Shown here in pieces: positions 15,114 through 46,465 of a stretch of DNA of 64,000 nucleotides (its first letter is position 1; the number at the start of each line of letters is the position of its first letter). The notes below the pieces were generated by a model, which was given only the letters and a program-made list of their open reading frames with translations, had not been told where the DNA came from and did no database searches. Both the position numbers and the translations under genes were made by a program. Origin of the DNA: Halosimplex litoreum (GTDB taxonomy: Archaea > Halobacteriota > Halobacteria > Halobacteriales > Haloarculaceae); the NCBI RefSeq assembly GCF_016065055.1, contig NZ_CP065856.1, positions 1,239,836-1,303,835 on the forward strand, written 5' to 3'.

Positions 15114-15926
15114 ATGTCCGACGACCACTACGACGCCCTCGCCGACGACTGGCACGACTACGCCGAGGCGCCGTGGCGCGCCCAGATACTCTGGCCCACC
15201 ATCGACGAACTGCTGCCCAACCTCGACGGCCGTCGCGTGCTCGACGCGGGCTGTGGCGACGGCACCCACGCGGCCGCGCTCGCCGACCGCGGCGCCGACG
15301 TGGTCGGCGTCGACGCGAGCGACGGAATGATCGACACTGCGCGCGAGCGCTACGGCGACCGCGACCGCGTCGAGTTTCACCGCGCCGACCTCGCCGAGGG
15401 CCTCGACTCCCTCGCCGACGACGACTTCGACCTCGTCCTCTGCCAGCACGTGCTCTCGCACGTCCCCGACCTCGAAGCGGTCGCCGCGGCGTTCGCCCGC
15501 CTCGTCCGCCCCGGCGGCTCGGTCGTCCTGTCGACCCACCACCCGTTCCACGAGTACCTCGTCGTCCGTGAGGAGTCCTACCCCGACACCCGAGCCATCG
15601 ACGGCCTCGACGCTCGCCCGGCCGTCGATGCCGACGCCGACTCGCATCCACCGACGTACGCCGACACCGAGCGCTACGATCTCTACTGGGGCGGTGAGGT
15701 GCCCGAGAACGCGTCGGACGGACACGGCGGAGCGGATCCCACCACCTTCCACCGACGGCCGCTCGACGACCTCACCGGCCCGCTGTTCGACGCCGGCTTC
15801 GCGCTCAGCGGCCTGCGCGAGCCCGACCTGACCGAGCGGCTGGACGACGAACTGGCCGAAGCGGTGTCGACACTGCTCGACCGACCGCCGCGGTCGCTCT
15901 GTCTCCGGGCCGAACTGTCCGAGTAG
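15114..15926 (+). CDS. Class I SAM-dependent methyltransferase
   Basis: The 270-residue product shows the Rossmann-type SAM site: motif I VLDAGCGDGTHAAAL, the acidic end of strand 2 VVGVDASDGMIDTARE, and motif IV region DLVLCQHVLSHVPDLE. After the core (about 35-150) comes an FHRRPLDDLTGPLFDAGF segment typical of small-molecule methyltransferases in this family. Substrate cannot be inferred from the fold. It is flanked by a lipoprotein gene and the first structured intergenic repeat, so context gives no help. Confidence 0.85.
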   Translation: MSDDHYDALADDWHDYAEAPWRAQILWPTIDELLPNLDGRRVLDAGCGDGTHAAALADRGADVVGVDASDGMIDTARERYGDRDRVEFHRADLAEGLDSLADDDFDLVLCQHVLSHVPDLEAVAAAFARLVRPGGSVVLSTHHPFHEYLVVREESYPDTRAIDGLDARPAVDADADSHPPTYADTERYDLYWGGEVPENASDGHGGADPTTFHRRPLDDLTGPLFDAGFALSGLREPDLTERLDDELAEAVSTLLDRPPRSLCLRAELSE

Positions 15927-15939
15927 TCTCCCGTTCGCC

Positions 15940-16300
15940 CTCGACCCGCTCGCGGTCGCTCAGGCGACTGCACGAGCGCGAGCGCGCCTCGCCCGTTCAG
16001 TCCACCAGGAGAGCAAGCTCTCCTGAGCCCTCGTTCGCTCCGCTCACGAGGACGTCAGGACCGCGACCGTCCCGCACAGCACCACAGACGCCCTCACACC
16101 TCCCCAGCCGCTTGCGCTTCTCGCAAGCTGCAATGCTCATCCCTCGCGCGACGCTGTCGCGCCACGAGAGTCGCGACAGCGCGCGCCGACCGCTACCGCA
16201 CCCGCACCCGCACCGCACCCGCACCGCACCCGCACCGTACCCACACCGCTACCGCACCCGCACCGTACCCACACCGCTACCGCACCTGCACCGCACGGTA
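15940..16300 (-). repeat. Structured intergenic repeat element, copy 1
   Basis: This 490-base gene-free gap carries, in minus-strand order: a GCGGT-rich tandem array (16189-16296), a long hairpin with arms CTGTCGCG/CGCGACAG, the block GCGCGAGGGATGAGC, a block GCGGCTGGGGAGG, two further hairpins (CCTCGT/ACGAGG; GGAGAGCTTGCTCTCC) and GGACTGAACGGGCGAGGCGC. The same blocks in the same order occur in copies 2 and 3. No plausible protein is encoded. The remaining bases to 16418 hold only the upstream region of the ABC gene. Confidence 0.8.
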
Positions 16301-16418
16301 CAGCCACCGCGAACGCACACAGTCCGTCGGTCGGTCACGACCCTCCCCGGCCGGTTCGGCGGTCCCGGACGCCCATTTCGACCGATCAAATAAGGGTGAG
16401 ACGCGTGAAAGGGCCGGT

Positions 16419-41246: not shown

Positions 41247-41317
41247 ACCGTTTCCGACCCGATTCCCCACCGAGAACGGTCGGTCCGCTCCTTCTCGAAG
41301 TCTCGACCTCGCCCGTC

Positions 41318-41823
41318 GGTGAGCGGCGCGGTTGCGGTGAGCGGCGCGGTTGCGGTGAGCGGCGCGGTTGGCGCGTGCTGTCGAGCGGTGCGAGGTCGAC
41401 CGGAGGGAGACCTCGATGCGAACGGGGAGCGAAGCGACCCGTGAGCGTGCCCGCCTCCCGGCGGGCCGCTCGAAACAGTCGCGCGAGGGATGAGCGAGTG
41501 AGTGGAGCGAACGAGCGAATCGGTTGGGGAGGCGTGAGGCCGTCTGCGGTGCTGTGCGGGTGCGGTCTGGTGGACTGAACGGGCGAGGCGCGCGTGGCGG
41601 CGAAGCCGCCACGGCTTGCGGCGGTCGGCGGAGCCGACCGCCCTGCTCGCGCTCGTTCAGTCGTCTGAGTCGGCACTATCCGCGCGGACGGTGCGGAGAG
41701 CGCGGATATCCGACTCAGCGAGCGCGAGCGGGGCGAGGGCGTTCGTCGCCTGCCGTCGAGTGCGGTACCGATTACTGCTAGCGAGCGCGCCGAGGGCGTT
41801 CGTCGCCTGCCGTCGAGTGCGGT
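41318..41823 (+). repeat. Structured intergenic repeat element, copy 2
   Basis: In plus-strand order: three 18-bp units GGTGAGCGGCGCGGTTGC (41318-41371), a long hairpin with arms CTGTCGAGCGG and CCGCTCGAAACAG, GCGCGAGGGATGAGCG, TCGGTTGGGGAGGCGTGAGG, GGACTGAACGGGCGAGGCGC, hairpins GTGGCGGC/GCCGCCAC and GCGGTCGGC/GCCGACCGC, a block GAGTCGGCACTATCCGCGCGG, then a 33-base block ending GTCGAGTGCGGT repeated at 41734-41766 and 41791-41823. Same blocks and order as copies 1 and 3. No credible gene. Confidence 0.85.
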
Positions 41824-41882
41824 CCATACGCGAACGTCGTCGACCGACGCGCCTATGCGGCCGCGGTGTCGAACGAACCTCA

Positions 41883-45758: not shown

Positions 45759-45829
45759 CGGTGGCGGGAACTGTCAGCCGAAGTTTATAAATGTCGGCCA
45801 CCGGGGCGGCAGTGGTCAGTAGAGGTGAT

Positions 45830-46381
45830 AGAGTGAGCGATTGCGGTTGGCGCGCGCTGTCGAGCGTGCCGAACGACAGTGAGGCCGCGAGTCGAAGCCG
45901 TGCGAGGGATGAGCGAACGAGCGCAGGCGCGTAGCGGTGCGGTCGGCGCGTGCTGTCGCGCGCTTTCATGCGCGCGACGGCACCGCGCGAGGGATGAGCG
46001 ACGACAGGAGCGAATCGGCTGGGGAGGCTCGTGGTTGTCTGCGGTCGCTGGCGCGGTACGGTGGCGGTCGCTGGCGCGGTACGGTGGCGGTGCTGTGCGG
46101 TTGCGGTCCCTGGCGTCTCGGCGAACGGAGTGAGCCGAGGCTCGGAAGACGAACGCAGTGAGTCTTCCGGCGGACTGAACGGGCGAGGTGCGCGTGGCGG
46201 CGTAGCCGCCACGGACTGTGGCGGTCGGCGGAGCCGACCGCCCGCTCGCGCTTGTACAGTCGCCTGAGCGGGCACTATCCGCGCGGTGCGAGGCGCGCAG
46301 CGCCTCGACACGCGAACGGCGACCGAAGGGAGCCGTGAGCGAGCGCGCCGAGGGCTTTCACCGCCTGTTGTCGAGTGCGGT
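45830..46381 (+). repeat. Structured intergenic repeat element, copy 3
   Basis: The element has two 5' modules, each with GGCGCGCGCTGTCG- or GGCGCGTGCTGTCG-type hairpin start and ending GCGAGGGATGAGCGA, then TCGGCTGGGGAGG, a 23-bp tandem GCGGTCGCTGGCGCGGTACG (46041-46063, 46064-46086), hairpins GAAGAC/GTCTTC with loop GAACGCAGTGA, GGACTGAACGGGCGAGG, GTGGCGGC/GCCGCCAC, GCGGTCGGC/GCCGACCGC, a block CACTATCCGCGCGG and an end block GTCGAGTGCGGT. It separates paralogue B from the HTH_10 gene. No credible gene in it. Confidence 0.85.
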
Positions 46382-46465
46382 CGCTGTCGATCGACTTCCT
46401 TTCACAACTCATCCACCAGAAACCACTACTCGACTAGCACATCGAACCGAACGACGGACGACGAC

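Follow-up and report, generated by a model that had tools for sequence, protein, structure and literature searches.

A 64,000-nucleotide stretch of the Halosimplex litoreum genome (positions 1239836-1303835 of a single contig of 4.16 Mb, hereafter the window) contains three gaps between genes in which the same sequence blocks recur in the same order. What are these gaps copies of, what has spread them, and what holds their layout together? A preliminary description of the window proposed a family of three modular, hairpin-built elements that encode no protein and are mobile or structured. Here, we examine the extent, mobility, fold and exchange of this family. The three gaps probably contain copies of a non-autonomous MITE confined to the haloarchaea, with IS6-type ends and a body of hairpin modules that is under constraint to fold.

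Layout of the copies in the window

All blocks named in the preliminary description were recovered by sequence, at the places and in the order given there, and a gene is absent from every copy. Copies 2 and 3 turned out to be longer than first described (Table 1), the extent of copy 2 being judged from an empty site in the congener G006. Copy 1, on the minus strand, is truncated and lacks both the CTATCC hairpin and the GGGCKTTC end, and copy 3 contains the 5' domain twice.

Table 1. Features of the three copies in window coordinates. The outer limits of copies 2 and 3 are approximate.
Feature	Position	Strand	Basis or remark
Copy 1, whole, GCGGT-rich array included	15944-16330	-	3'-truncated beside a gene ending at 15926
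Copy 1, 5' domain	16187-16136	-	
Copy 1, GGCTGGGGAGG	16109-16099	-	
Copy 1, core start	16003-15987	-	
Copy 2, whole interval missing at the G006 empty site	41247-41836	+	empty-site comparison; includes 41318-41823, the extent first described
Copy 2, GCGGT-rich tandem units	41317-41369	+	sequence
Copy 2, 5' domain: GGCGCGTGCTG - composite hairpin - GCGAGGGATGAG (variant of the long hairpin module)	41370-41494	+	
Copy 2, conserved block GGTTGGGGAGG	41522-41532	+	
Copy 2, core stem, CTGGTGGACTGAACGGGCGAG to CGAGGGCGTTC	41567-41744	+	covariance model match of 82 bits, G000:1281455-1281579
Copy 2, core inserts: two hairpins	41591-41643	+	
Copy 2, core CTATCC/GGATA helix	41674-41711	+	
Copy 2, 57-bp tail repeat and right end ..GCGAACG	41745-41836	+	sequence; empty site
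Copy 2, second 3' arm in the tail repeat, CGAGGGCGTTC	41791-41801	+	
Copy 3, whole element, left end GGCAGTGGTCAGTAGAGG, right end ..GAACCGAACG	45808-46453	+	absent from G006
Copy 3, two successive 5' domains, starting at 45849 and 45945	45849-45998	+	
Copy 3, GGCTGGGGAGG block	46017-46027	+	
Copy 3, core stem with inserted hairpins	46167-46359	+	

Family size and distribution

The family is much larger than the three copies first reported. Copy 2, searched against the genome, matched 85 pieces at about 40 places. The block GGACTGAACGGGCGAGG was found at 113 places genome-wide with up to three mismatches (15 for the reversed control), and its IUPAC form at 68 (none in the control), a similarity well above what chance would give. 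By this block the H. litoreum genome holds approximately 68 copies; the core covariance model gave 65 matches at E<0.01. The copies are 100% intergenic. Both orientations are interleaved along the chromosome, and none is fixed relative to the neighbouring genes (with E the element: 23 '> E> <', 17 '< E> <', 15 '> E> >' and 13 '< E> >'). A leader, terminator or riboswitch was rejected because of this random orientation, and tRNA-associated integration because only four tRNAs occur among the 59 loci scanned.

Seven other Halosimplex genomes carry 14-98 copies each, the lowest number coming from a genome that is 71% complete. Within the class, 100 of the 392 genomes sampled and 39 of the 86 genera are carriers, with 0-112 copies per genome; they include Halorussus litoreus, four Halonotius species, a Halobacterium and a Natronomonas MAG. 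Two species of genus g34 hold 112 and 108 copies and the remaining sampled members 0-6, and one species of genus g33 holds 53 and the rest of that genus 0-4. No match was obtained in 242 genomes of the same phylum outside the haloarchaeal class. The copies have built up in lineage-specific bursts, and the family is confined to the haloarchaea among the genomes sampled. A few haloarchaeal plasmids also hold copies, with no annotated gene over them. The viral contigs of IMG/VR gave no match, and a viral origin was rejected on that ground.

Anatomy across genera

In Halosimplex, the element starts with the left end [GC]TCAGTACAGGTGATRGAGTGAGC and GCGGT-rich units, followed by the 5' domain (GGCGCGYGCTG-hairpin-GCGCGAGGGATGAG), a variable stretch, GGYTGGGGAGG and a G/T-rich linker. 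The core is laid out as CCTGGYGGAYTGAAMGGGCGAGRCGCGCTCGCG ... AGTCGYCTGAGCGGGCACTATCCG ... CGGATATCCCGCTCAGCGACCGCGAGCGCGCCGAGGGCKTTC, and 57-bp tail repeats lie 3' of it, up to a right end with GTTCGGTTCGRTGTGCGAG as its reverse complement. Each 57-bp unit copies the 3' arm of the core stem, so that a given 5' arm could pair with any of several 3' arms. The number of tail repeats differs among copies (window 41745-41836; L056, L059, L063 and L064). In the other genera, the core and its ends are kept and the interior or the 5' domain is swapped; the Halorussus core can be shorter than 50 bp.

Empty sites, ends and the probable mover

The mobility suggested in the preliminary description is borne out by the 8-bp target duplications, the inverted repeats, the bursts in single lineages and the empty sites. 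In congeners, the loci of several copies are cleanly empty, some 20-60 bp standing in place of several hundred, and such sites were found for all three loci of the window. Copy 1 occurs in G002 and G003 and is missing from G004, G005, G006 and G007. At the copy 2 locus of G006, the base matching 41246 adjoins, nearly directly, the base matching 41831. Copy 3 is likewise absent from G006, and present in three other congeners.

In a few Halorussus copies, TGTTCAGATA lies at consistent distances on both sides, which suggested a comparison with the IS6 family. The best-preserved copies come from Halonotius and Halorussus; they lie between inverted repeats GGYRGTGTTCAGATAAG and have perfect 8-bp target duplications. 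The Halonotius roseus copy at L182 (268 bp) has the ends GGCGGTGTTCAGATAAG / GGTAGTGTTCAGATAAA and the duplication GTGACGCC; the Halorussus litoreus copy at L231 (227 bp) has the duplication CGTTCTTC, with one end off by a base. IS6-type ends occur at the expected distance on the left in 13 and on the right in 12 of the 43 Halorussus and Halonotius copies, compared with at most two per search window in the controls. The Halosimplex end variant, which matches the IS6 ends just in part, was found in 28/150 and 18/150 copies; the opposite strand gave none. Two good ends combined with an exact 8-bp duplication were seen in 2 of 266 copies. Across all copies there is no excess of target duplications, which is expected if most insertions are old, the duplications being informative in copies with intact ends only.

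Matches to PF13610, which we take to be the mark of the IS6 family, were found in H. pelagicum, G163 and G172; the window's own genome (G000), G002, G185 and G301 gave none. In H. pelagicum and G163, the matches lie inside elements of about 695 bp (696 bp when intact in H. pelagicum) with the ends GGTAGTGTTTAGTTAG / GGTCGTGTTTAGTTAAG or GGCAGTGTTCAGATTAG / GGCGGTGTTCAAATAAG, and three H. pelagicum copies are bordered by the exact 8-bp duplications CGGTCATG, CCCTCGAC and CCGCACCG. Intact 696-bp IS6 elements with such exact 8-bp duplications are located on the H. pelagicum chromosome at L253, L254 and L256. IS6 elements generate 8-bp duplications, in agreement with the copies examined here. Since the inverted repeats and duplication length of its best-preserved copies equal those of haloarchaeal IS6, the element was filed as an IS6-type MITE, and its ends and duplication length point to an IS6-type transposase as the probable mover. 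It shares with the IS6 elements of H. pelagicum and G163 the ends GGnnGTGTTYAG(A/T)TAAG and the 8-bp duplications, but differs from these transposase-encoding elements of about 696 bp in that its compact form measures 227-268 bp and encodes nothing.

Fold of the core and folding strand

The conserved core CCTGGYGGAYTGAAMGGGCGAG...CGAGGGCKTTC folds as one long stem. A covariance model, proposed in the preliminary description as a check on structure, was built, and its stems covary, in line with the idea that the element is structured. Across 48 diverse cores, 93.7% of the cells are paired and 17 of the 38 pairs show two-sided change, including an A-T with C-G covariation of the AAMG/CKTTC closing pair. 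On each of five measures, all 500 shuffles fell short of the real core, and pairing drops to 34-48% when the partner strand is shifted by 1-3 columns. Both further copies and covariation beyond chance, on which the preliminary description had staked its case, were thus found.

The replacements of Watson-Crick pairs indicate which strand folds. G-T outnumbers A-C by 58:21 in the core and by 71:11 and 106:4 in the 5' stem; these cells are not independent and the shorter class is possibly misaligned in part, and the direction is equal in all three sets. As a cruciform would give equal numbers of G-T and A-C, the excess of G-U pairs over A-C mismatches argues that the plus strand folds, as RNA or as single-stranded DNA. 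Mutation bias is not a likely cause of the excess, because the unpaired core columns are balanced (12 variable pyrimidine and 13 variable purine columns). The folding energy per base is better for the plus strand in 57/59 and 47/48 copies. Composition-corrected folding z-scores do not favour the plus strand, so the strand call rests on the counts of G-T versus A-C.

At core pairs 76-111 and 77-110 of a 108-sequence alignment, about one third of the sequences swap two adjacent G-C pairs for tandem G-A/A-G, a sheared-pair motif that is characteristic of RNA. Tandem G-A pairs are also possible in the loop GGGCGA/CGAGGG under the main stem.

A functional structured non-coding RNA family, transcribed from the plus strand, kept by the host and spread incidentally by duplication or transposition, would suit the compensatory changes in the core and the tolerance of G-U on the plus strand only. 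It would also suit the unpaired blocks, which are invariant across families of haloarchaea, and the old copies, which still match the covariance model. We nevertheless consider it unlikely, given that no AT-rich promoter was seen upstream of the left ends, that Rfam holds no match, that three quarters of the haloarchaeal genomes sampled, close relatives included, are devoid of the element, and that copy numbers run from 0 to 112 with empty sites. The RNA and MITE readings are compatible. A plain MITE reading leaves the plus-strand fold and the invariant unpaired blocks unexplained; the fold could act as a functional transcript, as a folded transposition intermediate or as a shield against read-through between genes. 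If it is transcribed, the element would be a structured RNA family of Archaea that is also mobile.

Probable exchange of modules between copies

At 23 loci common to other Halosimplex species, the element occupies the same position in the same orientation, without a reversed case within the genus. The sequence of the element does not follow the locus. At these loci, core similarity is 0.619 between orthologs versus 0.620 between random paralogs, with evenly spread ranks, and that of the 5' domain is 0.699 versus 0.690. In a wider set of loci, the corresponding values are 0.633 versus 0.657 for the core and 0.701 versus 0.673 for the 5' domain. The flanks of shared loci have a mean identity of about 87%. 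That orthologs are no more similar than paralogs despite a fixed position and orientation points to module exchange. In the pair L087/L140, with flanks that are 96.7% identical, one helix is swapped on both arms together; such wholesale replacement of both arms, rather than stepwise mutation, is likewise indicative of exchange between copies. Among 64 copies, the hairpin slot of the 5' domain alone takes 55 distinct sequences. Loss followed by re-insertion would need the same orientation to return each time. Exchange between copies is plausible, as haloarchaea are polyploid and their gene conversion is efficient (PMC12186497). With dozens of loci per genome at which the flanks are orthologous and the content is not, the family offers a natural archive of ectopic gene conversion among polyploid archaea.

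In G002 (L226:1-2600, orthologous to window 40.4-42.7 kb), the gene 3' of copy 2 is inverted and has an element copy on each side, in opposite orientations, as if flipped by recombination between inverted copies.

Origin and maintenance of the family

Under the MITE reading, an IS6-type DDE transposase, now not found in H. litoreum, would have moved the element in trans, and copies would have piled up in bursts where a lineage had such a transposase. Ectopic recombination or gene conversion in polyploid cells would then swap modules between copies, with selection retaining only those combinations that fold. A bolder version, which we regard as doubtful, is a prokaryotic counterpart of SINEs: a structured RNA with a function of its own that travels on IS6-type ends, spreads in bursts and stays foldable because whole hairpin modules are traded between its tens of copies. 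If true, the sequence at a locus would be fluid while shape and position are conserved.

A chromosomal DNA element for genome organisation (a cruciform, nucleoid or recombination site) is very improbable. The even dispersal in intergenic space, the GT-rich arms and the apparent recombination between copies (the L226 inversion) would fit it, but a cruciform involves both strands and predicts equal G-T and A-C counts, contrary to those observed, the two orientations are interleaved, and most haloarchaea lack the element. The nuclease- or chromatin-associated role raised in the preliminary description found no support. The weakest candidate, a PATE (IS605-derived and moved as single-stranded DNA via near-terminal palindromes), is likewise haloarchaeal, non-coding, palindrome- and hairpin-rich and mosaic, and a folded single DNA strand would equally suit the excess of G-T over A-C, yet it is hardly credible, as PATEs have IS605-related ends and by definition no inverted terminal repeats or target duplications (PMC3119063), both present here, and as no homology to the element beyond chance was seen around ten TnpB genes of the H. 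litoreum genome.

Relation to known repeats and associated modules

Bacterial BOX, ERIC and NEMIS repeats are, like the element, intergenic, modular, foldable and present in tens to hundreds of copies; they are unrelated in sequence and shorter, and hairpin exchange at orthologous loci is outside their usual description. Rfam 15 gave chance-level matches only at the window copy, and at six loci a neighbouring tRNA was the sole Rfam match. Searches of the literature by sequence and keyword found no description of the family. The earlier statement that no such family had been described therefore stands for the body and falls for the ends, which are those of an IS6-type MITE: a modular, fold-constrained, exchange-driven body appears to be undescribed, whereas the MITE kind and the IS6 ends are known. 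The nearest description is the catalogue of PATEs, MITEs and SMRs of Haloquadratum, where the haloarchaeal MITE category was defined for Haloquadratum walsbyi (PMC3119063). The element resembles haloarchaeal MITEs in being non-coding, with transposon-related inverted repeats, target duplications, many copies and empty sites. Unlike them, it has a body of modular hairpins with a covarying, strand-specific fold, its old copies apparently exchange modules, and several haloarchaeal families carry it. With this work, a large undescribed repeat family, carried by roughly one in four of the haloarchaeal genomes sampled, is named, and its ends and likely mover are identified.

A second repeated module, ATCTTTTTC-hairpin-AAAAA(C/G)ATGGGTGAAAAAGGCCG with hairpins ending in GCGCGCGGATG, sits right before the left end in many copies (L010, L018, L037 and L063). 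It may be a separate repeat that serves as a preferred insertion site. In G163 and G301 (genus g34, L189-L208), the core hairpin is often found at both ends of the element, inverted and approximately 450 bp apart, which gives the outer ends GAAAGCCCTCGGC...GCCGAGGGCTTTC; these two genomes carry about 110 copies each, against 0-6 in the other members of the genus.
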